A stretch of DNA of 48,728 bases from an uncultured Flavonifractor sp. (GTDB lineage Bacteria > Bacillota > Clostridia > Oscillospirales > Oscillospiraceae). Positions 16,253 to 44,124 of this stretch are shown one piece after another. Location: the NCBI GenBank assembly GCA_947649225.1, contig CANSQX010000004.1, forward strand, positions 1-48,728, read 5' to 3'. A program made the position numbers and the translations under genes. The notes beneath the pieces were generated by a model. It saw nothing but the letters and a program-made list of their open reading frames with translations. It did not search any database and was not told the DNA's origin. Each line of letters opens with the position of its first letter. Positions within the stretch are counted from its first letter, which is position 1.

Positions 16253-17074
16253 CTATGCTTCCGAAAAGCAATTCATTGCAATCCCCGTCGGCGTCACAAG
16301 GAACGGGTTGTCAGGCTTGATGGCCGGAATGCCCAGCTGCTTTTCGAAGACCTGCTCGATACCGGCCAGGCAGCAGGTACCGCCGCAGAGATACAGCAGC
16401 TCGGTCTCGCCGGTGTCAATATATTTCTGGACGATGGAGGCCATCTTTTCGATCACAGGCTTGACCACGGGGAAGACCAGCTTGTGGTTGGCCGGGTCCA
16501 TCTTCATCTCCTCGGCCTCCTCATAGGGGATGCCCAGGTTCCCCGCCAGCACCAGCGTGAGGTGCGTGCCGCCGGTGGCCTCGTCCGCGACCCGGACCAC
16601 CCGGCCGCCCTGGAGCACGGCCAGACCGGTGGTGCCGCCGCCAATATCCACAATGGCCCCGTTTTCCAGCTGATAGAGCGCATTGGCGGCGGAGGGCTCA
16701 TCCAGTACGCGGATCACGTCGAACCCGGCGCTCTCCGCCACATAGACATGGGTCTTTGTGCTGCTCTCCGTACCCGCCGGCATGGCGATGGCACACTGGG
16801 TCAGCTCCCGTCCAATGCGGGCCTCCAGCTTTTCCTTCAGCGCCTTGACAATGCGGGAAGCCCCCACGAAATCCACCACCACGCCGTCGCGGAGCACCCG
16901 GGCGGCCTGCTTTTCGCAGGCCACCGGGTTGTTGTCCTCGTCCAGCACCACCACCACGATGTAGGCCGTGCCCAGGTCCACCCCTACCTTGAGGGGGCCG
17001 TCCAGGTTCCCCGACACCTGGTGTTCCGAGTGCTCGACCCGTTCGATGTATGCGTTTACCGCCGCTAAATCCAT
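16253..17074 (-). CDS. eutJ: EutJ-like actin/HSP70-fold chaperone
   Basis: 273-residue member of the EutJ family (DnaK/actin ATPase fold) found in eut and glycyl-radical microcompartment loci. Phosphate loops are visible: VGVDLGTAYIVVVVLD (phosphate 1), VDIGGGTTGLAV (phosphate 2) and the adenosine-type CGGTCCLAG. It begins with a short amphipathic helix (MDLAAVNAYIERVEHSE) that resembles those of other cargo proteins here. The exact role is unproven; a chaperone or reactivation function for encapsulated enzymes is assumed from the fold. ATG with AAAGGAG upstream. Confidence 0.9.
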   Translation of the reverse strand: MDLAAVNAYIERVEHSEHQVSGNLDGPLKVGVDLGTAYIVVVVLDEDNNPVACEKQAARVLRDGVVVDFVGASRIVKALKEKLEARIGRELTQCAIAMPAGTESSTKTHVYVAESAGFDVIRVLDEPSAANALYQLENGAIVDIGGGTTGLAVLQGGRVVRVADEATGGTHLTLVLAGNLGIPYEEAEEMKMDPANHKLVFPVVKPVIEKMASIVQKYIDTGETELLYLCGGTCCLAGIEQVFEKQLGIPAIKPDNPFLVTPTGIAMNCFSEA

Positions 17075-17095: not shown

Positions 17096-18460
17096 TTATC
17101 GGATGTGCAGGGCGTCGGACATGACGCAGCGGCGCTTCCGGCAGAAGGACCGGGCCGAGGTGAGGCCCTCGCCGGTGGGGCCCGCGATGGTAAAGGTGGT
17201 GAAGCCCTCGCCGCCCACGCCGATGCCGGCATAGGAGGGGGCGTTCTTGACAAAAATGGTGGTCTGAAGCAGCTTTGCCATTTTGGTCAGCTTCTCCACG
17301 TTGGTGGAGTGCATCATCGCGGTGTGCCGGTTGCCGTTCTCAAAAACCCGGGCCATGTCGATGGCCTCGTCCACGTTGCGGGCCCGCACGACGGGAAGGA
17401 TGGGCATCATCATCTCCTCCCGGACGAAGGGATGATCGCCCGGCGTCTCCATGAGGATGACCTTTACGCCGTCGGGCACGGGCAGCCCCGCCTTCTCCAG
17501 GATATACGCGGCGCTCTTGCCCACGAAGTTGACATCCGGACCGCCCTTGTCGTTGGACACCAGCTCCCAGAGGGCCTGGATCTGGGCCGGATCCGTCATC
17601 AGCCAGGCCCCGTGCTGGGTCATACAGCGGATCAGCTCGTCGGCGATGCAGTCCACCGCCACAACCTCCTTCTCCGCGATGCAGGGCAGGTTGTTGTCGA
17701 AGGAGCAGCCGTTTACAATGTCGATGGCCGCCTTTTCAATGTTGGCGGTCTCGTCCACCACTACGGGGGGATTGCCCGCCCCCGCGCCAATGGCCTTCTT
17801 GCCGCTGGACATCACCAGCTTGACGATGCCCGGACCGCCGGTGGCCACCAGCATCCGGATCTTGGGGTGCTTCATCATCTCATTGGTGCTCTCAATCGAG
17901 GGCTCCCGGATGGTGGTAATCAGGTTGGCGGGGGCGCCCTGTTCGATCAGCCGCTTGTTCAGCAGCTCCACCAGCCAGGCCGACAGCTTCTTGGCCCGGG
18001 GGTGGGGGCTAAACACCACAGAATTGCCCGCAGCCAGCATCCCGATCGAGTTGCAGATGATGGTCTCGGAGGGGTTCGTGGCGGGGGTGATGGCTCCGCA
18101 GACGCCGAAGGGGCAGTATTCCACCAGGGTCAGGCCCTTGTCGCCGCTTTTGGCCTCGGTCACCAGGTCCTCAGTCCCCGGAGAGTTCAGCGCCGCCGCA
18201 CGGTTTTTGATGAGCTTCTGCTCATAATTCCCCATCCCGGTCTCCTCCACCGACATCAGGGAAATGATCTTGAGGACGTCAGGGGCGGTCACTGTGGTCT
18301 TGATGGTCTGCACAAAGCGCTCCCGATCCTCCATCGAGTAGCACAGGTAGGCCATCTGGGCCAGCTCAGCCGCACCGACTGCATCGTCCATACAGGTAAA
18401 GACGCCGAAGCGCTCGCTCTCACACTGCACTGCCGCAGGATTCCCATCTGTTTTTATCAT
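17096..18460 (-). CDS. CoA-acylating aldehyde dehydrogenase (PduP/EutE-like), copy 1
   Basis: 454-residue NAD- and CoA-dependent aldehyde dehydrogenase that would oxidise the aldehyde made by the glycyl radical enzyme to acyl-CoA. The catalytic Cys is in SFDNNLPC (Cys260), the PduP/EutE form. TPATNPSETIICN and ATGGPGIV are cofactor-side motifs. I start at the ATG at 18460, with AAGGAG 10 bases upstream; the in-frame stretch before it is not conserved. The C-terminus ends RKRRCVMSDALHIR, resembling the tail of the second copy at 23074. It lies directly between pduL and eutJ, so cargo status is very likely. Confidence 0.93.
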   Translation of the reverse strand: MIKTDGNPAAVQCESERFGVFTCMDDAVGAAELAQMAYLCYSMEDRERFVQTIKTTVTAPDVLKIISLMSVEETGMGNYEQKLIKNRAAALNSPGTEDLVTEAKSGDKGLTLVEYCPFGVCGAITPATNPSETIICNSIGMLAAGNSVVFSPHPRAKKLSAWLVELLNKRLIEQGAPANLITTIREPSIESTNEMMKHPKIRMLVATGGPGIVKLVMSSGKKAIGAGAGNPPVVVDETANIEKAAIDIVNGCSFDNNLPCIAEKEVVAVDCIADELIRCMTQHGAWLMTDPAQIQALWELVSNDKGGPDVNFVGKSAAYILEKAGLPVPDGVKVILMETPGDHPFVREEMMMPILPVVRARNVDEAIDMARVFENGNRHTAMMHSTNVEKLTKMAKLLQTTIFVKNAPSYAGIGVGGEGFTTFTIAGPTGEGLTSARSFCRKRRCVMSDALHIR

Positions 18461-18502
18461 AACAATCCATCTCCTTACCGGTCCGCACAAGCAGGGCCTG
18501 AT

Positions 18503-19165
18503 TCACGAACATGTCTGCGCTTTTTTGATCCGGATCATCTGGCCGTTCTTCAGCTCGCAGGCGTTGGCCTCGTCGGTGTCCACGTGCATCTCCGGCGCAA
18601 AACGGTCGGACACGTGGATCATCACGTTTTTCAGCACGCAGCCCCGGCAGCCGCCGGTCTCCACGCTCACGACCTCCTTATTCTGGACGCCCAGGGCGTT
18701 GGCCCGCTCCACGGAGAGGTGAATATGCCGCTTGGCCACAATGACGCCCCGCTTCAACTCCAGCCGCCCGGCCGGGCCCTCCAGAACGATCCCCGGGGTC
18801 CCGTCCAGATCGCCCGACTCCCGCACGGGAGCGGAGACGCCCAGCAGAAAACCGTCGGTCTTGGAGATCTCCACCTGCGTATAGGGGCGGAAGGGCCCCA
18901 GCACCCGCACATTGCGGATGCTCCCCTTGGGACCGTGCAGGGTGACGGTCTCCTCCGCAGCGTACTGCCCCGGCTGCTTGGACTGCTTTTTTACGTGCAG
19001 CACAGCGCCCTTGCCGAACAGAACCTCCGTGTCCTCCAGCGTCAGGTGGATGTGCCGGTTGGAGACTCCAACCGGGATGTCCTCGATAGAGGGCGCCTGG
19101 GTCCCGGCGTGCTCCCGCAGGACCTCCTCAATGATCCGCCGCAATACTTTCTCGTCAATTTGCAT
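18503..19165 (-). CDS. pduL: PduL-type phosphotransacylase
   Basis: 220-residue microcompartment phosphotransacylase that converts acyl-CoA plus phosphate to acyl phosphate and free CoA, recycling CoA inside the shell. The two PduL domains carry paired zinc-binding histidines in SNRHIHL (His38, His40) and AKRHIHL (His147, His149), with a further His in MHVDTDEAN (His194). The first 19 residues (MQIDEKVLRRIIEEVLREH) form the amphipathic encapsulation helix typical of PduL. ATG with AAGGAG about 11 bases upstream. The acyl phosphate would go to a kinase not present in the window. Confidence 0.95.
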   Translation of the reverse strand: MQIDEKVLRRIIEEVLREHAGTQAPSIEDIPVGVSNRHIHLTLEDTEVLFGKGAVLHVKKQSKQPGQYAAEETVTLHGPKGSIRNVRVLGPFRPYTQVEISKTDGFLLGVSAPVRESGDLDGTPGIVLEGPAGRLELKRGVIVAKRHIHLSVERANALGVQNKEVVSVETGGCRGCVLKNVMIHVSDRFAPEMHVDTDEANACELKNGQMIRIKKAQTCS

Positions 19166-19183: not shown

Positions 19184-20353
<1,170 letters not shown>

Positions 20354-20377
20354 TGCATACCGCCTTTCTGGTTGCAA

Positions 20378-21379
20378 TCAGGTGCTGACCTGATTTTTGT
20401 ATTGCTGGGGGGTGATCCCCTCGTACTTCTTGAATACCTTGCTGAAATAGCTTCCCTCGTTGTAGCCCATCTTGAAGGCCGCGTCCGTCATGCTCATGCT
20501 GGTGAAGGCCAGATACATCTTTGCGCACTTGAGCTTGCGCAGATGGATGTAATCCATCACACTGATGCCTAAATTCTGCCGGAACAGCCGGCTCAGATAG
20601 CTCTGACTGATGTTGCAGGCCGTCCCGATGGTGACCAGACTGATATTCTCCTTCAGCTTGTTGTCGATCCAATCGAAGACCGTCCGCATGTGCTCGTATT
20701 TCGAAATCGTGATCTGCCGGAACGCGTAATCCATCACGTCGTACAGCCAGAAGGTCCAGGAGATGCTCTCCCGGGCAAACAGATGGTTGATGGGGAAGAG
20801 CTCCTCCACATTGGCGTCCGCCTCGGTGATGGGATCCAGCGTACCCAGGACCTCCCGGCCGATCTGCAGGAAGCAGCTCCGGATATTTGCCTCGTTGCCC
20901 TTCTCCCGCTGGTAAATCTTTTCCACAATCTGGGCGGCCAGCGGCGTGATTTGCAGGTACTGCCGTTCCTCCAGAATCTGGCTGAGCTGCCGGACGTAGT
21001 CCTCCTCTGCGTTGTGGAGGCGCTTATACTCCTCCAGGATCTGAGCGATCATGGAGAAGGAGACCGGTTTGGAGATATACTCCCGAACCTTGGCGCTCAG
21101 GGCCTCCCGTGCAAAGGAAAAGTTGTTGTAGGCGGTAATGATGTAGATGGTAATGGAGGGGTTGCGCTTATAGATCGCCTTGCTGGCCTCAATGCCGGAG
21201 ATCCCAGGCATCATAATGTCCATCAAAACAATATGGATGTCCTCTTCGGCGCAGAGCTCCACGGCCTCCTCGCCGCTCTCCACACAGGCCGCCACCTGGA
21301 AGCCCTCTACCTGGGTGACCATGGCGCGCAGCGCCTCCCGCATCAGTTTTTCATCATCCACAATCAGCACTCTGTACAT
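20378..21379 (-). CDS. Response regulator, receiver plus AraC-type DNA-binding domain (YesN-like)
   Basis: 333-residue transcription regulator. The receiver domain (1-120) is intact: acidic pocket D9/D10, phospho-acceptor Asp54 in VLMDIMMPG, Thr82, and Lys104 in YISKPVS. The AraC/XylS double helix-turn-helix occupies the last ~100 residues (SLVTIGTACNISQSYLSRLF and DAAFKMGYNEGSYFSKVFKK). The start codon overlaps the stop of the PocR sensor gene (TAATG), so the two are coupled. It most likely activates the microcompartment genes. Its partner kinase lacks the phospho-accepting His, which raises the question of how this regulator is phosphorylated. Confidence 0.93.
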   Translation of the reverse strand: MYRVLIVDDEKLMREALRAMVTQVEGFQVAACVESGEEAVELCAEEDIHIVLMDIMMPGISGIEASKAIYKRNPSITIYIITAYNNFSFAREALSAKVREYISKPVSFSMIAQILEEYKRLHNAEEDYVRQLSQILEERQYLQITPLAAQIVEKIYQREKGNEANIRSCFLQIGREVLGTLDPITEADANVEELFPINHLFARESISWTFWLYDVMDYAFRQITISKYEHMRTVFDWIDNKLKENISLVTIGTACNISQSYLSRLFRQNLGISVMDYIHLRKLKCAKMYLAFTSMSMTDAAFKMGYNEGSYFSKVFKKYEGITPQQYKNQVST

Positions 21380-22659
21380 TAAGGCTTCCTCCCATCAAAG
21401 GATCGCGGATAACGTACCGTGCATGTTGTGCCCTTTCCCCGTTTGACCTCGATCTGAACCCGGTACTCCGGCCCGAAATGCTTCTCCAGCCGCTGGTTGA
21501 CAATATCAATGCCCTTGGCGATGATTTCGGTCTGCTCCTCCTCTGTCCGGTGGGCAAAAAACGCCTGCAATTCGCTGTCGTTCAGACCGGGACCGTCGTC
21601 GGCCACACAGATGACCACATGGTCCTGGTCGTAGTCCGCAGTGACATCAATGCGGCCCTCTCCGGACTTGCAGACGATCCCGTAATAGACGGCCCGCTCC
21701 ACCAGGGGAAAGACCAGCATGTTGGGCACCTGCTGCAGCTCCATCCCATTCGCCATCTGGATGCGGTAGGACAGCCGCTCCCCCATGCAGCGCTTCTGAA
21801 CAAAGAGGTAGTGGTCCACCATCTTCATCTCGTCCGCCAGCAGCTCGGAGGGATTTTTCCGGTTTGTGCTCTCCAGCAAAAACCGGGCGAACACCGTAAT
21901 GACCTCGTTGCTCTGGCGGGCGTTTTCAATGGCCGCAATGTTGGAGATGGCGGTCAGGGTGCTGGACAAAAAGTAGGGGCTCATCAGGGAGCGCAGCTCC
22001 ACCAGCTTGGACTCGTTGAGTCCCTTTTCCAGCTCCATGCGCTGCTCGCGTTCGATGTACAGTGCGATTTGGTCATCGTGATGCTTGCGCTGGATGACAT
22101 TGATCAGCTCCTTCTCACCCAGCTGCTGGACCACCAGGGAGATAAGCTCCGTAATGTGCAGAAATTTCTCATAGGGGAGCTGGAGTACATGCTCGAAATC
22201 CTCTTGGAATTCTTTGGACCAGTCCCGGCTGTGGTGGAGCACCGAGCTGAGATGCACCACGTCGGGCGGCGCGTCCTGGCAGTTGATCTGCCCGCCGATA
22301 AAGCCGCCCAGAAACTGGCCCTGTACTTCCAGGGGAATCGCCACCTCCAGCAGGCCGCAGGGGCAGAAATAGACGTTGGTGTTCCGAAACACCGCCGCCT
22401 GAATGGCGCCGAACGCGTTGGAGGCGGAGCACAGCTTGGCGCGCTCCGGGTCCTCCTGCACCCGCTTGCAGAAGCTGCAAAAGGAGATGGAATCCGTAAC
22501 CGGCTCGCCCCGGTAGTCCACCGTGACAAAGGCGAGACCCGTGGCCGCAGCAATCTTCTGCATAATATTTTCCAGGTTCTTGCGTCCAAACAGCTCCAGG
22601 ATGTCGAAGCCGGATTTTGCTGTGGGATCATCAAATAAATGTTGCGGCATGAGTTCCAT
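21379..22659 (-). CDS. PocR-domain sensor, degenerate LytS/YesM-type histidine kinase
   Basis: 426-residue cytoplasmic sensor. Residues ~15-180 are a PocR domain, the ligand-sensing domain of the propanediol regulator PocR, with conserved Cys in FCSFC, AKLC and YFCPCGLLEVAIPL. A coiled-coil segment (~185-220) leads into a kinase core. In YesM/LytS kinases the H-box reads PHFLFN; here it is SPYFLSS (Tyr229 replaces His). The N-box usually ENA-xx-HG is ERAVYYG (Arg322 replaces Asn). The G1 box VADDGPGL is kept. It is therefore probably unable to autophosphorylate in the normal way. The ATG at 22659 follows AAGGGGG by 9 bases. Likely senses a diol or related compound (from the family). Confidence 0.88.
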   Translation of the reverse strand: MELMPQHLFDDPTAKSGFDILELFGRKNLENIMQKIAAATGLAFVTVDYRGEPVTDSISFCSFCKRVQEDPERAKLCSASNAFGAIQAAVFRNTNVYFCPCGLLEVAIPLEVQGQFLGGFIGGQINCQDAPPDVVHLSSVLHHSRDWSKEFQEDFEHVLQLPYEKFLHITELISLVVQQLGEKELINVIQRKHHDDQIALYIEREQRMELEKGLNESKLVELRSLMSPYFLSSTLTAISNIAAIENARQSNEVITVFARFLLESTNRKNPSELLADEMKMVDHYLFVQKRCMGERLSYRIQMANGMELQQVPNMLVFPLVERAVYYGIVCKSGEGRIDVTADYDQDHVVICVADDGPGLNDSELQAFFAHRTEEEQTEIIAKGIDIVNQRLEKHFGPEYRVQIEVKRGKGTTCTVRYPRSFDGRKP

Positions 22660-23073: not shown

Positions 23074-24435
23074 TCAGCGGATAGAAAAGCCGGTGGTCAG
23101 CGTGCAGCGTCTTCTGCGCGCAAAATGCCGCGCCGTCGTCACGCCCTCGCCCGTGGTGTTGGCAATCGTAAAGCTGGCGGTGCCCTCGCCGTTGAAGCCG
23201 ATCCCCACCAGAGAGGAGCCGTTTTTGATGAACACAGAGGTCTGCATCACCCGGGCGGCCTCGTTCAAATGCTCCATGGACTGGGAGTGGATCATGGCCG
23301 TGTGCCGGTTGCCCTGCTCGATGAAGAGGGCGGTCTCCAGCGCCGTATCAAAGTCGGGCACCCGGATCAGCGGTACCAGCGGCATCATCATCTCCAAGGT
23401 TGCAAAGGGATGGGTCTTGACGGTGTCCACCACAATCAGGCGCACCTTATCCTTGCAGGGAATTCCGGCAGCCGCCAGAATTTCATTGGCGCTCTTGCCC
23501 TCCAGGGCCCGGTTCATCGTCAGGTTCCGGGTGACGGCCGCCTTGGTCAGCAGGAGCATCTCCATCTCGTCCGTGACGTAATAGACCTTCTCCCGCTTCA
23601 GCGCCTCCACAAAGGGGCCTGCCGCCGCCGCCGTAACGACAATATTTTTCTCGCTGAGACACATGATATTGTGGTCAAACGATGCACCGTCTACAATATC
23701 ACGGGCCGCTTTCTCCATATATGCAGTCTCGTCCACAATGACCACCGGATTGGCGGGTCCCGCGCCGATGACCCGCTTGGAGGAGGAGAGCGCCCGGGAG
23801 AGCATCTTGCCGCCGCCGGTCACCACGACCATGGCCACGTCGGGGTGGTTCATGACCCCTTCCGCCACCTGCATGGAGGTCTCGGGCAGGGCGGAGACCA
23901 GATTTGCAATGCCGCACGTCTCCAACACAGCCTCGTTGATCTGCCGCGCCACATGGCGTGAGAGCGCGACGCACCTGGGGTGGGGGATGTGAATGACGGC
24001 GTTTCCGGCAGCCAGCATTCCCAGCGTGTTGCCGATCAGGGTGGCGCAGGGATTGGTGGCGGGCTGCACCGAGCAAATGACCCCGTAGGCGGAATACTCA
24101 AACAGCGTCATGCCATCGTCACCGGTCTGCACGTCGGTCACCAGGTCCTCCACGCCGGGGGTTTTATGGATTGATAGCATCAGCTTGACAATCTTGTCCT
24201 GTGTATTGCCCATCCCGGTGGCCTCCAGCTCCTGAACGGCCATGGACGTCACCATCGGGATCAGCTTGCTCTTGATTGCCGCAAGGATTTTCTGCCTGCT
24301 GCTTAGATTCAGCTTGGAATAGGCCTGATAGGCCTGCACGGCGTCGGCGATGATCTGCTCAACTTCGCTCACCGGCCGGCATACATCCGCCCTGGCGGTA
24401 TGATCCATATCGTTATACCCCATAACAAACTCCAT
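23074..24435 (-). CDS. CoA-acylating aldehyde dehydrogenase, copy 2
   Basis: 453-residue paralogue of the enzyme at 17096-18460, with the same CoA-acylating architecture. The catalytic Cys is in SFDHNIMC (Cys259), and QPATNPCATLIGN and VTGGGKMLSRAL match cofactor segments. The tail RRRRCTLTTGFSIR is like that of copy 1. Sequence divergence is substantial, so this is not a recent duplication. The ATG at 24435 lies 5 bases after the upstream stop; an ATG four codons later with GGAG in front is an alternative. It is in the dehydratase-proximal half of the locus, so it is probably the main partner of the glycyl radical enzyme. Confidence 0.92.
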   Translation of the reverse strand: MEFVMGYNDMDHTARADVCRPVSEVEQIIADAVQAYQAYSKLNLSSRQKILAAIKSKLIPMVTSMAVQELEATGMGNTQDKIVKLMLSIHKTPGVEDLVTDVQTGDDGMTLFEYSAYGVICSVQPATNPCATLIGNTLGMLAAGNAVIHIPHPRCVALSRHVARQINEAVLETCGIANLVSALPETSMQVAEGVMNHPDVAMVVVTGGGKMLSRALSSSKRVIGAGPANPVVIVDETAYMEKAARDIVDGASFDHNIMCLSEKNIVVTAAAAGPFVEALKREKVYYVTDEMEMLLLTKAAVTRNLTMNRALEGKSANEILAAAGIPCKDKVRLIVVDTVKTHPFATLEMMMPLVPLIRVPDFDTALETALFIEQGNRHTAMIHSQSMEHLNEAARVMQTSVFIKNGSSLVGIGFNGEGTASFTIANTTGEGVTTARHFARRRRCTLTTGFSIR

Positions 24436-24440
24436 TCTGC

Positions 24441-25220
24441 TCAGACCTCGGCCGGGCCGCCCAGCACGGCCGGGCCGTCGCTCCGGCCGGATTCATGGGT
24501 ATCCGTCTCCCCGGCGGGAAGGACGGACGCGTCATGCTTGCCGTCCGGCTTCTTCGCACTGGATTTTGTGCGCTTTTTGACCTGCCGTGTTTTTTTGCCC
24601 GTACTGCGCGGGGGAGCGTCCTCTCCAGGCGCTTCAGCCTCCTGCGCCGTTTTATCCTCCGCAGCTGCTATGGGTTCCGCCGGCACTGGTTCAGGCTCCG
24701 CAGCTGCTGCCGGTTCCGCCGGCACTGGTTCAGGCTCCGCAGCTGCTGCCGGTTCCGGCTCCGCCTCCACAGGCGGGACCGGCTCTGCCACGGCGGACTC
24801 AGCCACGATGGAGGGCTCCTCCGGTTCTGCGGCCGCCGGCTCAGGCGCCCCGGCAGGCTCAGACGCCGCACCGGGCTCCTGCGGCGGGTCAGGCGTCTCT
24901 GACGGGCCGTCCGGTGTTCCGCACGTCCCGCGCCCGTCCGGGTCGGGATCGTCGGAGAAAAATGCGGTCACCGCAGGCACGGGGCGGGGAATCACTTTGG
25001 AGGTGACGAAATGGCCGTACTGCTCGCCCACCTGCTTTCCGGCGGTGATAGCGGCGTTGACCGCCGCCACGTCCCCCCGGATTTTGACGGTAATCCAGCC
25101 GAACCCCTTGGCACGTTCTATATTTGCAATTCTGACATCTGCGGTCTTCGCCATGATGTCGGCGACGACGATGGCGGTTGCCAGACCTTGAATTTCAATC
25201 ATTCCCAAAGCGCTTTCCAT
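24441..25220 (-). CDS. BMC-H shell protein with long disordered acidic/basic tail
   Basis: 259 residues: an N-terminal BMC domain (about 1-92, starting ALGMIEIQGLATAIVVAD) followed by an unusual ~165-residue extension. The start at 25220 has AAAGGAGG 8 bases upstream. The pore loop reads RAKGFG instead of the usual KIGSG, putting Lys and Phe at the hexamer centre. The tail is first Pro/Asp/Gly-rich, then Glu/Pro/Ala-rich with a repeated AEPEPVPAEP element (about 145-190). It then turns strongly basic (KKTRQVKKRTKSSAKK, about 209-224) and ends acidic. Ordinary BMC-H proteins are 90-110 residues. The tail probably faces one side of the shell and could recruit cargo or position the organelle (inference). 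Confidence 0.9.
   Translation of the reverse strand: MESALGMIEIQGLATAIVVADIMAKTADVRIANIERAKGFGWITVKIRGDVAAVNAAITAGKQVGEQYGHFVTSKVIPRPVPAVTAFFSDDPDPDGRGTCGTPDGPSETPDPPQEPGAASEPAGAPEPAAAEPEEPSIVAESAVAEPVPPVEAEPEPAAAAEPEPVPAEPAAAAEPEPVPAEPIAAAEDKTAQEAEAPGEDAPPRSTGKKTRQVKKRTKSSAKKPDGKHDASVLPAGETDTHESGRSDGPAVLGGPAEV
24673..24750. repeat. Two perfect 39-bp tandem repeats in the BMC-H tail coding region
   Basis: Units 24673-24711 and 24712-24750 are identical and a partial third follows. Each encodes 13 residues containing AEPEPVPAEP. The unit length is a multiple of three, so copy-number change would keep the reading frame. Confidence 0.9.
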
Positions 25221-25375
25221 GGAACACGCCTCCTTTGGCCGCATTGACTGTGACGGCACTCAACGGTTGTGCATATCAGCTTTTGAGGAAAAACCGGTTA
25301 AATCCTGACGACAGGCCGGGGCGCAGGGCGTCCCCACGGCCTGTCATGCTTGAAATGGGAGCTTCGGAGCCCTGG

Positions 25376-25407
25376 TCCCTGCCGGACGGCTTGCCGTCCG
25401 GCAGGGA
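25376..25407 (-). repeat. Intercistronic hairpin between flavoprotein and tailed BMC-H genes
   Basis: 14-bp stem TCCCTGCCGGACGG / CCGTCCGGCAGGGA with a 4-base loop, inside the 222-base gap 25221-25442. A second weaker pairing (GACAGGCC/GGCCTGTC) lies at about 25311-25345. No T-run, so more likely an RNA-stability or attenuating element than a full terminator. Confidence 0.55.
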
Positions 25408-25442
25408 TTCGGACCCAAGAATGAGGGAGTGGAGAAATCATC

Positions 25443-26216
25443 TTAAAAAGCGTCTGGCCCGGGGGGCTCATAGCGAAGCTGGATCCCGCGCTCCGCTGCG
25501 CGCTCTGCCGCCAGGGGGGACACCACGTCGCCCTCACGCAGCCAGAGGATGCCACCAGGGGCCGCGCCGGCCAGATCCTGGGTGGTAATAATACGTTTTT
25601 TCCCTCTGGGGGCGGCGGGCCCCCGGTTTGCTGCGGTCAGAAGGGATACCGGCTCCACCGGTTCGGGAGCGCGGGGCGGAGCGGCCTGCTGGGTAACCAC
25701 ATACCGGGCGGGCAGACGGTCGAAGCAGATGCCGAAGGATTCGGCCTCCCGGTAATAGGCCTCAATCTTCCGCTGATAGGCCGCGGGCTCCAGGCCGGTG
25801 AACATGGGGGACTCCCGCCGCATGAAGACGGGCTGTCCGCGGGCGATACACTGGGCGATCCACCGGGATTCAAAGTCGTCCTGAAGGCACAGCGCGAGCT
25901 TGACCACCAGAGCCCGGGAGGGGATGGGCAGCACGGTCAGACAGTCCCCCACAGGGAAGACCGCCGCGCTGCGCGTCACAATTTCGGACACCCCGGCGGC
26001 GCGTAGCGCCTCCCCGCCGGTATCGCCGTCGGGTACAATGGCGGTGATCGCATAGCTGCCCCGCAGGGTCTGAAGCAGATCGGCGCACAACCCCTGGGCC
26101 TGCCAGTCCTCCGGCAGAAGGAGACAGGCGTCCGGCAACGCCGGACCGGCGTTCTGCTCCCTTTGGATCTGCAAAAGCACCCGCTGGATCAATTCGGTAA
26201 GCTGTCTGTCGTCCAT
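25443..26216 (-). CDS. Microcompartment-associated flavoprotein-like protein with encapsulation helix
   Basis: 257 residues. The first ~20 (MDDRQLTELIQRVLLQIQRE) form an amphipathic helix like the cargo-targeting helices of PduL and the cupin. The middle (about 27-170) resembles the HFCD/flavoprotein fold, with ACLLLPEDW at the start and segments such as PSRALVVKLAL and GQPVFMRRE. The end has IITTQDL-x(20)-VVSPLAAERAAERGI, a short motif also seen in other microcompartment proteins. It is cotranscribed with the shell genes. Function is unknown; a flavin-binding cargo protein is the best guess. ATG with GGAGGAG close upstream. Confidence 0.7.
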   Translation of the reverse strand: MDDRQLTELIQRVLLQIQREQNAGPALPDACLLLPEDWQAQGLCADLLQTLRGSYAITAIVPDGDTGGEALRAAGVSEIVTRSAAVFPVGDCLTVLPIPSRALVVKLALCLQDDFESRWIAQCIARGQPVFMRRESPMFTGLEPAAYQRKIEAYYREAESFGICFDRLPARYVVTQQAAPPRAPEPVEPVSLLTAANRGPAAPRGKKRIITTQDLAGAAPGGILWLREGDVVSPLAAERAAERGIQLRYEPPGPDAF

Positions 26217-26242
26217 CTGGCTCCTCCGCCTTCTCTAAGAGT

Positions 26243-26282
26243 TCCCGGAATCCGGGCGCAGGGCTGCGCCCGGATTCCGGGA
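26243..26282 (-). repeat. Large intercistronic hairpin between BMC-H and flavoprotein genes
   Basis: Near-perfect 18-19-bp stem (TCCCGGAATCCGGGCGCAG paired with CTGCGCCCGGATTCCGGGA) with a tiny loop. No T-run follows. It probably protects the upstream BMC-H and PduB messages from 3' decay or damps readthrough, which would favour high shell-protein output. Confidence 0.6.
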
Positions 26283-26300
26283 GGCTTCCTGGTGCGGCAA

Positions 26301-26579
26301 TCAGCTTCTCTTGGGAATGAGCAGCTCGGTGTCGCTGTGGGGACGGGGGATCACGTGGACGGAAACCACCTCGCCTACCACGCGGGCGGCGGCGGCGCCG
26401 GCGTCCACGGCGGCCTTGACCGCGCCCACGTCGCCGCGCACCATCACGGTGACCAGGCCGGAGCCGATCTTCTCGTAGCCGACCAGCGTCACGTTGGCGG
26501 CCTTCACCATGGCATCGGCGGCCTCCACGGAGCCCACCAGACCTTTGGTCTCAATCATACCCAGAGCGTCGGAATTCAT
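26301..26579 (-). CDS. PduA/EutM-type BMC-H shell protein
   Basis: 92-residue single-BMC-domain hexamer, the main facet tile. It begins [20 protein letters not shown] and has the canonical pore loop [25 protein letters not shown]-like C-terminal strand [11 protein letters not shown] follows. The ATG follows GGAGG by 7 bases. The KIGSG pore is the type that lets small polar diols through in PduA (family knowledge), in contrast to the tailed BMC-H at 24441. Confidence 0.96.
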
Positions 26580-26656
26580 AAGAGTACCTCCATTTTTTCA
26601 TCAAGTGTTTCAACATACAGCGGGCTTCCGCCCGAACAGACGGATCCGTCCGGACA

Positions 26657-27430
26657 TCAGATGTACGGGGTGGAGCAGGACTTGGGCTCGCTGCCCATGG
26701 CGCCCAGCAGCTTCTTGCCCACGTCGATGCTGGCGCGGACAGCCTGACGCACCGCGCCAGAGTCGCCGGTGATGGTGAGCGTGACCTCGTTCTGGAAGGA
26801 ATAGCCCTCGCCGCCGGCGGGGGAGGTGTAGCTCACCACGTCCACGTTGGCCGCTTTCACAGCCACATCGGAGAGAACTGTGCCGATGGCGGCGGGCGCG
26901 CCGCAGATCAGCCCGAACGCCTTGCCAAGGGGGCTGTTGAACGCCTTTTCGATACAGTAGCTGGCCCGGGCGGTGTACTGGAACTCCACATGGCCAGCCT
27001 CGTTGGTATAGATGTCGCCAAAGTATTTCTCCACACAGCCCAGGGCGATCTCCACCGCCCGGCGGGCGTCGGAGACGTCGTCTGCGCCGATGAGGATCAA
27101 GCAGCCCTGACCGCATCCGGTGTCGTCCTTGGACGCCTCGATGCTGATGAGCTCGGCGTTGGTGGCCTTGACGGCGTCATCCACCGCCATCATCTGGGGG
27201 CCCAGGCCGGTGCGGCCGCCCACAATGCCGATGGAGCGGAAGCGCCCCAGATTCATCGTCTCGGTCAGCGCGGGATCGACGCTTGCAATGACCAGGCCGA
27301 TGGTGTTCCCCATCGCCGTGCCCACAAACTCCGTGACGCCGATGTCCCGCATACAGCAGGATGTGCCGGCGGGGCTTTTGACTTCCGCAGCCACGCGCTC
27401 CATTACCTTATCCAGTAAACCCTGATCCAT
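26657..27430 (-). CDS. pduB: PduB-type BMC-T shell protein
   Basis: 257-residue tandem-BMC trimer of the PduB family. Family landmarks are TEFVGTAMGNTIGLVIASVD, GGRTGLGPQMMAVDDAVKATN and the second-domain GAPAAIGTVLSDVAVKAA. An N-terminal amphipathic helix (MDQGLLDKVMERVAAEVKS) precedes the first domain; in Salmonella the PduB N-terminus tethers shell to cargo, and this helix resembles the encapsulation helices of the cargo in this locus. ATG with GGAGG 7 bases upstream. Confidence 0.95.
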   Translation of the reverse strand: MDQGLLDKVMERVAAEVKSPAGTSCCMRDIGVTEFVGTAMGNTIGLVIASVDPALTETMNLGRFRSIGIVGGRTGLGPQMMAVDDAVKATNAELISIEASKDDTGCGQGCLILIGADDVSDARRAVEIALGCVEKYFGDIYTNEAGHVEFQYTARASYCIEKAFNSPLGKAFGLICGAPAAIGTVLSDVAVKAANVDVVSYTSPAGGEGYSFQNEVTLTITGDSGAVRQAVRASIDVGKKLLGAMGSEPKSCSTPYI

Positions 27431-27530: not shown

Positions 27531-28451
27531 TCAGCCGCCGATGACGCAATGGAGCCCCTGTTCCTCCACGACCTTCCGGAAGACCTCTGCCCGCTCCCGC
27601 GGCAGCGGCTGAATCTCATAGCCCATGGGGTATTCACTTCCCAGCAGCCCGTATTTGTTCTCGCCATAGGTGTGATAGGGCAGCACATGGATGGTGTCAA
27701 CCCCGTTCAGGGTTTTCGCAAACGCGCTGATTTTCTTGAACTCTTCCTCGCTGTCATTGATGGTAGGGATGGTGGGCACACGGATGACCACTTGGGTCAG
27801 CTCGGCGATCCGCACGGCATTGCGGTGGATCACCTCATTGCTCACGCCGGTGGCCTGCTTGTGCCGCACGGGGTCCATCGCCTTGATGTCCAGCAGGGCC
27901 ACGTCCAGATAGGGGAAGACCGACTCCACCGCCTCCTCGCTGCCCAGGCCGGTGGTCTCCATGGCAGTGTGCCAGCCCTGGGCCTTGCAGGCCTTGAGCA
28001 GCTCGGTGGCAAACTGCCACTGCACCAGCGGCTCGCCGCCCGAGATGGTCACGCCGCCGCCCGACTTCCGGTATACTGCCCGGTCCTTCTTCAGGATGTT
28101 GATCAGTGATTCCACCGACATTTTTTCTCCCTTGAGGACCAGTGCGCCCGCCGGGCAGACGCTGGCGCACTCGCCGCAGCCCACGCACTTCTGCCGGTCA
28201 ACCAGCCCGGGCTCCCCCGGGCTGATTGCACCGTTCTGGCAGGCCTGCACACAGCGGCCGCAGTGAATACACTGCTCCGGCTGGTACATGATGACCGGGT
28301 TCGCGGACTGGGACTCCGGATTGCAGCACCAGAGGCAGGAGAGCGGGCATCCCTTCAGGAAAACGATGGTGCGTATGCCGGGACCGTCGTGAATGGAAAA
28401 GCGCTGGATATCGAATACGGTCCCCTCCGCTTTATAGTTGATCGATACCAT
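27531..28451 (-). CDS. Glycyl radical enzyme activase (radical SAM)
   Basis: 306-residue radical-SAM enzyme that abstracts hydrogen from the conserved Gly of the adjacent glycyl radical enzyme. The SAM-cluster motif is CPLSCLWC (Cys35, 39, 42; CxxxCxxC). An inserted ferredoxin-like domain carries CIHCGRCVQAC and CVGCGECASVCP (Cys61-71 and Cys89-99), as in activases of diol dehydratases and choline lyase. GGGVTISGGEPL binds SAM. The start at ATG 28451 has GGGAGG 9 bases upstream. It follows the dehydratase by 47 bases, the standard order for this pair. Confidence 0.96.
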   Translation of the reverse strand: MVSINYKAEGTVFDIQRFSIHDGPGIRTIVFLKGCPLSCLWCCNPESQSANPVIMYQPEQCIHCGRCVQACQNGAISPGEPGLVDRQKCVGCGECASVCPAGALVLKGEKMSVESLINILKKDRAVYRKSGGGVTISGGEPLVQWQFATELLKACKAQGWHTAMETTGLGSEEAVESVFPYLDVALLDIKAMDPVRHKQATGVSNEVIHRNAVRIAELTQVVIRVPTIPTINDSEEEFKKISAFAKTLNGVDTIHVLPYHTYGENKYGLLGSEYPMGYEIQPLPRERAEVFRKVVEEQGLHCVIGG

Positions 28452-28498
28452 AGGCAACAACCTCCCGCACTTCCTGCGCGCCGTATTTTAGTGTTCGT

Positions 28499-31117
28499 TT
28501 AGAAGGTCTGCTCGGTACGGGCGATGATGCCGTCCTGCACTTCCTTCGCCAGGGAGATAAACTGGGCGCTGTAGCCGGCCACGCGGATCACCAGGTCCTT
28601 ATAGTCCTGGGGATGCTGCTGGGCGTCGATGAGGGTCTCGCGGTCCACCACATTGAACTGGATGTGCATTCCCTTGCGCTCGAAGTAGCCGCGGATGAGG
28701 GCGGCCAGGTTCTGGATGCCGCTGTCCCCCTCCAGGGCGGAGGGCAGGAACTTCTGGTTGTAGAGCGTGCCGTTGGAGGCCAGGGCGTGGTCCAGCTTGG
28801 AGACCGAGTTGGCCGCCGCCGTGGGGCCCTGGGTATCCTTGCCGGCCCGGGGGGAGACGCCGTCGGCCACCGGGGTCTTGGCCAGGCGGCCGGTGGGCAG
28901 GGCGCCCACGTCCTTGCCGTAGAGCACGTTGGCGGAGACCGGATACATACCGGCCTGGAACTGGCCGCCGCGGGCGCAGCGGTGCCGCTGGACGATCTCG
29001 CAGTAGATGCGGGCCACCCGGACGGCGTAGGCGTCCACCTCGTCGTTGTCGTTGCCGAACGCCTCGGTCCGGTCCAGAATGTTGCGCATGGCCGCGTACT
29101 TCTCGGGAGAGCCGCCGCCGGTGGCGCCGGAGCCGCAGGAGGCCACGGTGCTGCGGATATCAGACAGGTTCACGGAGCCGGAGCCGCCCAGGATCGCCTT
29201 GACGGCCTCGTAGATCTTGGACTCCATATCGCTGCTGTCGGCGCAGCAGCCGCCGGCCTGGTGGCGGCCCCAATCGTCGTGGCCGGTGGAGCTGCCTGCG
29301 GGGATGGGATAGCCGAAGTTGTTGTCCAGGGCGTCCATCAGCTCCGCCATGGTGAAGCGCTTGTCGCGGAATACGTTCTTCTCGATGCACCACATGGAGT
29401 CGCCGGTGTCGATGACAGCGCAGCCCTGGGGACCGGAGAAGTTGTACCGGGCGCCGCCCTCCTGGACCGACTTGCCCTTGGAGATACAGTCCTCAATGAG
29501 GGCGGACTGATAGGGCAGGGGGCAGATCTGGCCGTGGGCCCGGTCGATGCAGTTGTCCGCCTCCACCATCAGGCCGATGAAGTACTCCATCTGCTTCTCA
29601 AAGGCGTTCCACAGCTCTTCGATGCAGGTGAACTTGGTGACGTCGCCGGTCTCCAGGCCCACCAGCTTGCCGTCCACCCGGCCGTTATGCAGGGTGATGT
29701 CCAGAACCTTGGCGCAGTTGTAGCTGGCGGCGTCGTGCCAGCCGTCGTAGCGGTGGTTCAGGTCGGGCTCCACGCAGCCGCTGGGGGTGTAAGTACGGGC
29801 CAGCTCCAGGGGCACGCCCCGGTTGACCATGGCGGGGATAATGACCTCGTCGTTGAAGACGTTGGGCATGCCGTAGCCCAGACGGATGGTCTCGCACACC
29901 CGGTAGAGGAAGTCGTCGGGGGTCTTGTTGGAGACGCGGACGGCCAGCGAGGGGGAGGGCATACCGGTGTGAGCCAGAGCGGTCAGACAGAGATAGCTGA
30001 TGGTATTGGTCTGGTCGATGCCTCCCTCGTCCTGGCCGCCCAGGGCGATCATCTCAAAGAGCTGATAGCCGGCGAACGCCTGGGCGGAGAGGTCGTCGCG
30101 GACCTTGTTGCAGTCGCTCATCTTCAGGAAGATGCAGTCAATGAGCTCCTGGGCGAAATCCTCGGTGATGGTGGGGTCGTTCTTGTAGTAGGGATACATA
30201 AAGCGGTCGAAGGGACCGGGAGAGTAGGAGTGGCCGTTGGTCTCGATGTTCAGGATGTTGTGGACGAACCAGAAGGACTGGCAGGCCTCGTAGAAGTTCC
30301 GGGCGCCGAACTCGGGGACGTGCTGGCAGTTCTTGGAGATCTGGAGCAGCTCGGCCTTGCGCACCGGGTTGGACTCCTTGGCCGCCATCTCGGCCGCCAG
30401 CCTCTCGTAGCGGTGGGCGTACTGAATACAGGCGCGGTAGGTGATCAGCACGGCCTCATAGAACTGCTCCTTGGCGATGGAGTCGGGGTCGCTGCGGTCC
30501 AGGCTCTTGCGGGCGGCCTCCACCTCCTCGATGACGCCGGTGAAGCCGGTGGCCATGATGCGCTCGTAGTTGACGACCGAGTGGCCCACGCCGCCAAACA
30601 GGTAGTTGCCCACGTTGAATACGCCGTTGTCCTGGGCCCGGAGGGTCTCCTCGGACATGGTGGCGGTGGCGTACTCGCTGAGGGTGCGGCCCTCCCAGTA
30701 TTTAAAAGTATCATGCAGGATCTTCTTGTTCTCGTCGCTGATGTAGAAGGGGTCGGTGCTGCGGTCGGCGATGGTCTCGAACTCGTCCTCCACCCACTTG
30801 CAGGAGAACTCCACGCCAATGTCGGAGGAGCGGCGGTGGATGTTGCGGCAACCCACAATCAGCTCGTCGTCGCGGATGATGACGGTGCCCTCGGTCAGCA
30901 GCTTCTCCACCACCTTGGCCCGGCGCATGATGGGCGTCATGCCCTCGGTCTCCTTGTACACCTGGGTCACCAGCACCGCCCGCTCAGACTCCAGAACCGG
31001 GGTGGAGTCCAGGATGGCCTGCTTAATGCGCTTGATGCGGTCGGTGGGCTGTGCAAAGCCCTTTGCGATCATACCCTTTTCATTGTAGAACCGCTCTTTT
31101 GCTGTCATCTTCGACAC
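28499..31117 (-). CDS. Glycyl radical diol dehydratase (1,2-propanediol/glycerol type)
   Basis: 872-residue signature enzyme of the locus. The GTG at 31117 has AGGAGG 8 bases upstream. Thiyl Cys448 lies in PSGCVEP with catalytic Glu450; the glycyl loop is RVAGYSA with Gly848. Compared with C. butyricum glycerol dehydratase (recalled residues), His179, His296, Ser297 and Asp462 match His164, His281, Ser282 and Asp447, all at a constant +15 offset, while Phe354 replaces Tyr339. Choline lyase CutC has Asp and Thr where this enzyme has His179 and His461, so CutC is excluded. About 70 extra Gly/Ser/Cys-rich residues (about 603-675) are absent from glycerol dehydratase. No long N-terminal cargo extension. 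Likely converts 1,2-propanediol to propanal. Confidence 0.93.
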   Translation of the reverse strand: MSKMTAKERFYNEKGMIAKGFAQPTDRIKRIKQAILDSTPVLESERAVLVTQVYKETEGMTPIMRRAKVVEKLLTEGTVIIRDDELIVGCRNIHRRSSDIGVEFSCKWVEDEFETIADRSTDPFYISDENKKILHDTFKYWEGRTLSEYATATMSEETLRAQDNGVFNVGNYLFGGVGHSVVNYERIMATGFTGVIEEVEAARKSLDRSDPDSIAKEQFYEAVLITYRACIQYAHRYERLAAEMAAKESNPVRKAELLQISKNCQHVPEFGARNFYEACQSFWFVHNILNIETNGHSYSPGPFDRFMYPYYKNDPTITEDFAQELIDCIFLKMSDCNKVRDDLSAQAFAGYQLFEMIALGGQDEGGIDQTNTISYLCLTALAHTGMPSPSLAVRVSNKTPDDFLYRVCETIRLGYGMPNVFNDEVIIPAMVNRGVPLELARTYTPSGCVEPDLNHRYDGWHDAASYNCAKVLDITLHNGRVDGKLVGLETGDVTKFTCIEELWNAFEKQMEYFIGLMVEADNCIDRAHGQICPLPYQSALIEDCISKGKSVQEGGARYNFSGPQGCAVIDTGDSMWCIEKNVFRDKRFTMAELMDALDNNFGYPIPAGSSTGHDDWGRHQAGGCCADSSDMESKIYEAVKAILGGSGSVNLSDIRSTVASCGSGATGGGSPEKYAAMRNILDRTEAFGNDNDEVDAYAVRVARIYCEIVQRHRCARGGQFQAGMYPVSANVLYGKDVGALPTGRLAKTPVADGVSPRAGKDTQGPTAAANSVSKLDHALASNGTLYNQKFLPSALEGDSGIQNLAALIRGYFERKGMHIQFNVVDRETLIDAQQHPQDYKDLVIRVAGYSAQFISLAKEVQDGIIARTEQTF

Positions 31118-43221: not shown

Positions 43222-44124
43222 TCACAGCGCCCGCTTCCAGGACACCCGGATGGTGAAGCGGTCCCCCTCCAGCGCGGCGGAGGCCTCGCCCCCCATCTGA
43301 CCGGCCAGGGCCCGCACAATGGCCAGGCCCAGACCGGTGTTATGGCCGGTCCGGGTCTGGTCGGCGGTATAGAAGCGGTCGAAGACGTGGGGGATATCCT
43401 CCTCCGTCAGGCCGGTACAGCCGTTGGAAAAGGCCGTGACCACCCTGTCCCCCTCCTGGTACAGCCGGACCGAGAGGGTGCTCCGCCCGTGGTCCAGGGC
43501 GTTGCGGATCAGGTTGGTGTAGACCCGGGTGACCCCGCCTGGGTCGGCCAGAATGGCGGCCCCGTCCTCCAGGGAGACCTCCACCTGAAAGCCCGCCCCC
43601 TCAAAGTCCCCATAGAAGGAGGCCAGCAGGCCGGAGAGCAGCTTGCCCGGCTCCACCCGCTCCAGGCTGAGGGGATATTCTCCCCCCTCCAGCCGGGACA
43701 GGTCGTAAAAGCTGGTGATGAGGCTCTGGAGGGCCTTGGCCCGCCCGGCCACCACCGCCAGGTACTCCCGCCGGTCTGCCTCGGACAGATTGTCCCCCTC
43801 CAGCAGCTGGAGGTAGCCCAGGATGGAGGTCAGCGGAGTGCGCAGATCGTGTGAGACGTTGGCGATCTGGCGGCGGAGGGCCTGCTCCCGGGCCCGGTAG
43901 GCGGCCTCGTCGGCGGCGCGGAGCTCCAGCAGGATGTTGATCTGATCCATCAGGGCCTCGGCCGCCGGGTTGGGCGCCTCCAGCCGCAGGCGGCTTCCGC
44001 CGCTGCCGCCCATGACCTCCCGCAGCTGCCGTGCGGCGGAGCGCAGATTGCGCTCCGCCCCATAGGCCCGCAGCAGCAGGAAGAAACCGGCCGCCGCCAG
44101 GATTGCCGCGATCCAGTAGCCCAC
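43222..44124 (-). CDS. Sensor histidine kinase next to an ABC exporter
   Basis: 300-residue membrane-anchored kinase. One hydrophobic helix (about 3-19) at the N-terminus, then a helical linker, HisKA with phospho-acceptor in NVSHDLRTPLTSILGYLQLL, and an ATPase domain with N-box NLIRNALDHG, FSNGCTGL and TGLGLAIVRALAG. The GTG at 44124 has GAGGAGG 8 bases upstream. With no outside sensor loop it belongs to the intramembrane-sensing type that often pairs with antibiotic-export ABC systems. No response regulator gene lies next to it in the window. Confidence 0.9.
   Translation of the reverse strand: MGYWIAAILAAAGFFLLLRAYGAERNLRSAARQLREVMGGSGGSRLRLEAPNPAAEALMDQINILLELRAADEAAYRAREQALRRQIANVSHDLRTPLTSILGYLQLLEGDNLSEADRREYLAVVAGRAKALQSLITSFYDLSRLEGGEYPLSLERVEPGKLLSGLLASFYGDFEGAGFQVEVSLEDGAAILADPGGVTRVYTNLIRNALDHGRSTLSVRLYQEGDRVVTAFSNGCTGLTEEDIPHVFDRFYTADQTRTGHNTGLGLAIVRALAGQMGGEASAALEGDRFTIRVSWKRAL

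Follow-up and report, generated by a model that had tools for sequence, protein, structure and literature searches.

A PocR-type sensor that lacks the phospho-accepting histidine, and its receiver partner, in a GRM3-like diol locus of an uncultured Flavonifractor sp.

The PocR pairs of PDU1D/GRM3 loci (PMC4207490) are the closest described relatives of the sensor and regulator analysed here, with which they share the PocR plus LytS-type architecture, the neighbouring regulator and the kind of locus. Unlike our sensor, relatives in the other shell-gene loci sampled keep both the H-box His and the N-box Asn, and loss of the His is unmentioned in the published descriptions that we found. PMC4207490 also cites a two-component pair in the 1,3-propanediol operon of Clostridium butyricum. 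There, a PocR kinase and a regulator lie beside a B12-independent glycerol dehydratase, an arrangement present as well in one of the loci collected in this work (L070); in the tree, dha groups of this type branch apart from the clade of our sensor. The genes of the C. butyricum pair are named DhaS-DhaA.

Pseudo-histidine kinases and pseudo-receivers are already known, separately. DivL of Caulobacter (PMC4211667) resembles our sensor in the Tyr in place of the H-box His, in the ATPase fold and in the binding of a regulator without kinase activity (putative in our case); it differs in being a PAS-domain protein that couples two pathways, in keeping its N-box and in having an ordinary receiver, DivK, as partner. 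The kinase domain of GanS (PDB 6swk/6swj) is the closest solved structure by sequence and fold, but GanS is described as a histidine kinase and the solved construct does not include a PocR domain. Some of the partner regulators found here resemble pseudo-receivers and atypical regulators in the absence of receiver active-site residues; 18 of the 20 atypical regulators considered in a 2025 review are orphans (PMC12632262), in contrast with those reported here, each paired with a co-encoded His-less sensor. The same review calls control of receivers without phosphorylation a "mystery", the characterised atypical regulators being almost all orphans. In the open-access literature we found no PocR kinases that lack the His, whether from microcompartment or from glycerol loci, and no conserved pairing of such sensors with degenerating regulators.

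The sensor and its locus

The window, that is, the whole stretch of 48,728 nucleotides that was analysed, carries the sensor and its partner on the minus strand, with the following features.

21379..22659, minus strand: PocR-LytS-type sensor pseudokinase, 426 aa (ATG at 22659, stop TAA at 21379)
22111..22593, minus strand: PocR ligand-binding domain (PF10114, 112-115 bits)
21772..22005, minus strand: His_kinase (DHp) domain with degenerate H-box SPYFLSS (PF06580, 37-40.7 bits)
21973..21975, minus strand: codon TAC of Tyr229, in place of the phospho-accepting His
21961..21963, minus strand: codon AGC of Ser233, the H+4 position
21403..21714, minus strand: HATPase_c domain, N-box changed, G1 and G3 kept (PF02518, 40-42.9 bits)
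21694..21696, minus strand: codon CGG of Arg322, in place of the N-box Asn
21586..21600, minus strand: G1 box Asp354-Gly358 (DDGPG), with Asp354, Gly356 and Gly358 present
20378..21379, minus strand: response regulator, REC plus AraC-type HTH, 333 aa

The three Pfam matches of the sensor were all above the curated cut-offs, and the protein consists of the PocR domain, a long helix, the LytS-type DHp domain and the HATPase_c domain. It thus has the architecture of LytS/YesM-type histidine kinases (PF06580 plus PF02518) and neither the phospho-accepting His nor the N-box Asn that characterise them. Translation of the 426-aa open reading frame bore out the first-pass annotation, which had read Tyr229 for the His in the H-box (SPYFLSS, residues 227-233) and Arg322 for the Asn in the N-box (ERAVYYG, residues 321-327). 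The His of the N-box motif ENAxxHG is likewise replaced (Tyr326), and Gly410 is present. Sensor and regulator are co-encoded, the last base of the sensor stop codon being part of the regulator ATG (1-base overlap), and have no evident membrane part. The predicted sensor monomer (mean pLDDT 86.9, pTM 0.54) gave the GanS kinase domain as its best fold match (TM 0.74 by target), and DivL was also among the matches.

The pair is located between an aldehyde dehydrogenase gene and the MetK gene, within a microcompartment locus whose other genes are listed below.

16253..17074, minus strand: EutJ-family protein (NF011660)
17096..18490, minus strand: aldehyde dehydrogenase 1 (NF011927, 690 bits)
18503..19165, minus strand: PduL phosphate propanoyltransferase (PF06130, 252 bits; NF011652)
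19184..20377, minus strand: S-adenosylmethionine synthetase MetK (TIGR01034), syntenic in most loci of the sensor clade
23074..24435, minus strand: aldehyde dehydrogenase 2 (NF011927, 540 bits)
24441..27430, minus strand: shell genes (extended BMC-H, BMC-H and PduB-type BMC-T)
27531..28460, minus strand: glycyl radical enzyme activase
28499..31117, minus strand: glycyl radical enzyme, glycerol/diol dehydratase group

MetK, EutJ and two signalling proteins are features of GRM3 loci (PMC4207490; feature list also from PMC6325248), and the window holds all of them together with the glycyl radical enzyme and its activase, PduL and shell proteins. The solved chains nearest to the glycyl radical enzyme were 9rco (the best match, a glycyl radical protein with no functional name), 1r8w (glycerol dehydratase) and 5i2a (diol dehydratase); none of the curated equivalog models passed its cut-off for this enzyme. 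The enzyme has an insert around residues 605–668, and an insertion of about 60 residues has been described in the 1,2-propanediol dehydratases of GRM3/4/5 (PMC6325248). Among the shell genes lies an ORF of 257 aa (25443-26216) without any Pfam or NCBIfam match, weak relatives of which occupy the same place in several clade loci. A scan for promoter motifs gave no excess over shuffled sequences.

In the genome, which is 80.7% complete, the DHp domain of the window sensor was the sole PF06580 match, and HATPase_c gave 30 matches, other kinases among them; one such kinase-like protein lies elsewhere in the window (43243-43545, minus strand, 68.8 bits). A second intact PocR or LytS-type kinase, considered as the true partner of the regulator, was not found in this 80.7% complete genome. 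The one further PocR protein in it, an ORF of 445 aa (G000:C5:18353-18841; L082:5565-6899), bears an AraC-type HTH and is likely a one-component regulator.

Loss of catalytic residues among the orthologues

An alignment of three relatives, scanned against GTDB contigs, yielded 20 named orthologues, 19 of which entered the tree (the fragmented L095 was left out); genome searches added three more and, with the window protein, the clade comprised 23 sequences, supported by an SH-aLRT of 100 in a tree built without the H-box and N-box columns. The 36 genomes sampled from 36 other genera of the family to which the window's bacterium belongs contained no close orthologue, and searches of plasmid records with protein queries returned only distant Rahnella and LytS-type matches. 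The sensor adjoins its regulator gene in all 23 clade loci, and in most of them the stop of the former and the start of the latter overlap or nearly touch. Shell, PduL or aldehyde dehydrogenase genes surround the pair in 22 of the 23, and in most of these loci the glycyl radical enzyme, MetK and EutJ are encoded too; at L090, no other window protein was matched within the region covered.

The H-box His was absent from 21 of the 23 clade members, the corresponding column being occupied by Tyr (8), Cys (5), Leu (3), Phe (2), His (2), Ser (1), Gln (1) and Ile (1); in aligned PocR kinases outside the clade it was His in 52 of 60. Besides the window's own, the clade members came from Clostridium, Lacrimispora, other Lachnospiraceae, Caproiciproducens, Butyricicoccus, Eubacterium, Peptoniphilus and Anaerococcus. 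Conservation at Tyr229 and Arg322 was the check proposed in the first-pass annotation: the identities of the residues vary, but nearly all orthologues lack the His. Since the orthologues share this loss, a strain-specific mutation, chance and an error of sequencing or assembly are excluded as its explanation. Orthologues with His, the observation that was to speak against the claim, were limited to two near-identical Clostridium proteins (L117 and L118, from genomes G447 and G455), in both of which the N-box Asn is replaced by Tyr. These two represent a natural intermediate state, with the His kept and the Asn lost; they branch beside the Tyr-bearing L084 and, as Tyr and His codons are one base apart, a His that was kept and one that was regained look alike in the tree. 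The N-box Asn was found in 6 clade members (vs. 55 of 60 PocR kinases outside the clade), all six without the His. Asn without His in these members and His without Asn in L117 and L118 indicate that neither loss need precede the other. At H+4, Asp (14), Asn (6), Ser (2) and Arg (1) occurred in the clade, vs. Asn in 59 of the 60 outside.

Two further Clostridium groups of the same tree, outside the clade, also lack the His: one of five sequences (L105–L109), with Glu, Asp or Asn at this position, and one of three (L122, L123 and L125), with Arg, Asp or Asn. The remaining PocR kinases of the tree had His in 51 of 51 cases, and homologues in other loci in 35 of 36, the lone exception having been matched through its PocR region only. 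The reported frequency of a missing His is 0.9% in HisKA and 0.3% in HisKA_3 (PMC12632262). In regions of about 20 kb, the loci of both groups contain a glycerol-dehydratase-like glycyl radical enzyme and its activase and no shell genes. The L070 locus looks dha-type, because its enzyme aligned with the solved glycerol dehydratase 1r8w at 1597 bits and an iron-type alcohol dehydrogenase follows the activase. In another dha-like locus (G468:C1:113945-115141; L111, L164) the PocR kinase homologue is interrupted by three in-frame stops and is probably a pseudogene; the adjacent glycyl radical enzyme and activase are full-length ORFs.

Constraint on the clade proteins was unevenly distributed. The PocR domain is their best-conserved part (mean identity 58% in the clade vs. 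36% elsewhere), whereas identity in the H-box core is 37% in the clade vs. 65% elsewhere; relaxation thus concerns mainly the catalytic motif. In informative His-less pairs the dN/dS of the DHp domain was 0.02-0.15, similar to that of the PocR part; a value of 0.43, obtained for one pair in the ATPase domain, was based on very few synonymous changes. Asp354 and Gly356 were invariant in all 83 aligned PocR kinases. With a histidine kinase fold, catalytic residues missing in nearly all orthologues and purifying selection on the domain, the sensor corresponds to what is called a pseudo-histidine kinase, which upholds the proposal that it is a pseudokinase. Cys64, Cys77 and Cys99 of the PocR domain (window 22279-22479, residues 61-127) were also invariant in 83 of 83 sequences; the window sensor has in addition Cys61 and Cys101, and Cys127 is invariant in the clade but not outside it. 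These cysteines might form a metal or Fe-S site.

Partner regulators and modes of control

The window regulator keeps Asp54, Thr82 and Lys104, as had been claimed, and also Asp8 and Asp9, so that the definition of a pseudo-receiver (one of the five active-site residues missing) does not apply to it. Across the family, the phosphorylation pocket was damaged in 13 of 29 His-less pairs vs. 1 of 48 His-bearing pairs (Fisher p 4e-6, a value inflated because related sequences were counted as independent). On the tree there were only four independent contrasts, too few for significance; two or three of them agreed with joint loss and almost none ran against it. For example, the acidic pair is replaced by Ser-Asn in Peptoniphilus and Asp54 by Glu in Anaerococcus, and in the dha-like groups either Asp54 has become Asn or Ser or Thr82 has changed. 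A stop or a frameshift interrupts the regulator gene in two of the 13 (L094 and L109), whose residues were assigned by eye; these genes may be non-functional or their sequences erroneous, and the count that excludes them is 11 of 27. The L094 regulator (L094:9237-10274) has an in-frame stop and Gly for Asp54, and is a pseudogene or an assembly error. The pocket was whole in 16 of the 29 His-less pairs, the window's included, which suggests that phosphorylation still matters there. The DNA-binding HTH domain of the regulator is conserved (65% in the clade).

The first-pass annotation had offered several roles for a ligand-controlled pseudokinase, namely a binding partner, a phosphatase, or a scaffold for another kinase or for acyl phosphate. 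Judged from sequence, the first would fit the whole family best. The constrained PocR domain, the kept non-catalytic output and the coupled regulator, which in several lineages does without a phosphorylation site, favour direct, ligand-dependent binding, and we put at about even the chance that the sensor acts in this way, as the ligand-gated pseudo-histidine kinase of a GRM3-like diol glycyl radical enzyme locus. The ligand of the PocR domain would be the substrate of the locus or a related compound (1,2-propanediol or another small diol like it); its binding would alter the dimeric helical domain of the sensor, which would hold or release the co-translated REC-AraC regulator by contact, not by phosphoryl transfer, and the regulator might then turn the operon on. 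DivL is a precedent for a fold of this kind that binds a regulator and has neither kinase nor phosphatase activity, and allosteric coupling by sensor kinases has been suggested as a mechanism that pseudo-receivers might use (PMC12632262). A broader and more tentative proposal, to which we give a little less than even weight, is that a family of such pairs, from glycerol and diol operons, is now phosphorylation-free, pseudokinase and receiver-AraC protein forming a two-polypeptide, ligand-controlled transcription factor; the loss of His, Asn and pocket residues would be visible piecewise among extant lineages. Against direct binding stand the complete receiver pocket in over half of the His-less pairs and the His of L117 and L118.

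The kept pocket bears on another explanation, that Asp54 is phosphorylated by an acyl phosphate (PduL-made acetyl or propionyl phosphate) or by another kinase while the pseudokinase gates the regulator by binding it or its phosphorylated form. We regard this as possible but on the unlikely side; it is a live rival for the window pair because the regulator has all five pocket residues, PduL lies in the locus, the genome encodes an acetate kinase and the 30 HATPase_c matches include possible donors. Where PduL is part of the locus, most regulators of the clade keep Asp54. A gate of this kind has a precedent in DivL, which, with Tyr for His and neither kinase nor phosphatase activity, binds DivK~P (PMC4211667). 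However, the Peptoniphilus and Anaerococcus loci contain PduL and their regulators have nevertheless lost pocket residues, which are lost too in the dha-like groups with no PduL in the region. In the window pair, acyl phosphate or another kinase may add a further control to direct binding, the regulator pocket being intact. That the sensor is instead a ligand-controlled phosphatase of a regulator phosphorylated elsewhere seems decidedly unlikely to us: in HisKA-type enzymes, phosphatase activity and absence of the His can go together (PMC12632262) and the ATP-binding G1 box is kept, but most of the clade has no Asn at H+4, the residue likely to serve dephosphorylation if HisKA families are a guide, which makes a dedicated phosphatase less likely, and several partner regulators, having lost the phospho-acceptor or the acidic pair, would leave nothing to dephosphorylate. 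The phosphatase role put forward earlier was weakened accordingly by both the sensors and these sister regulators.

Free drift of the H-box and N-box within the clade and the three stops in the G468 homologue would also be expected of a decaying relic beside a regulator that acts alone; the open frames, a dN/dS that is low in all three domains (PocR, DHp and ATPase), the many invariant PocR positions and the constant position beside the regulator argue against it, and we consider decay very improbable. The intact G1 box would allow residual kinase activity through Tyr229 or another residue, and ChrS of Corynebacterium, a pseudokinase that pairs with its paralogue HrrS (PMC9491836), offers a model for a heterodimer with an intact kinase. 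Nevertheless, Tyr occupies position 229 in only 8 of the 23 clade members, the others having any of seven residues, and the 80.7% complete genome gave no other PF06580 kinase; we attach hardly any credence to either form of this explanation.

Direct, ligand-dependent binding is thus the reading that we prefer, and the system suits its study: sensor, likely ligand class and regulator lie together in one locus, and the stages of loss represented among the lineages (the His without the Asn, the Asn without the His, a whole or a missing pocket) open the question to direct test. For proteins of microcompartment and 1,3-propanediol loci, annotation as a histidine kinase may be wrong, a caution that bears on the building of diol-inducible promoters. 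In gut and soil Clostridia, the His has been lost repeatedly in a sensor/regulator switch beside diol microcompartment genes, where the two proteins may form a phosphate-free pair of a kind rarely seen.
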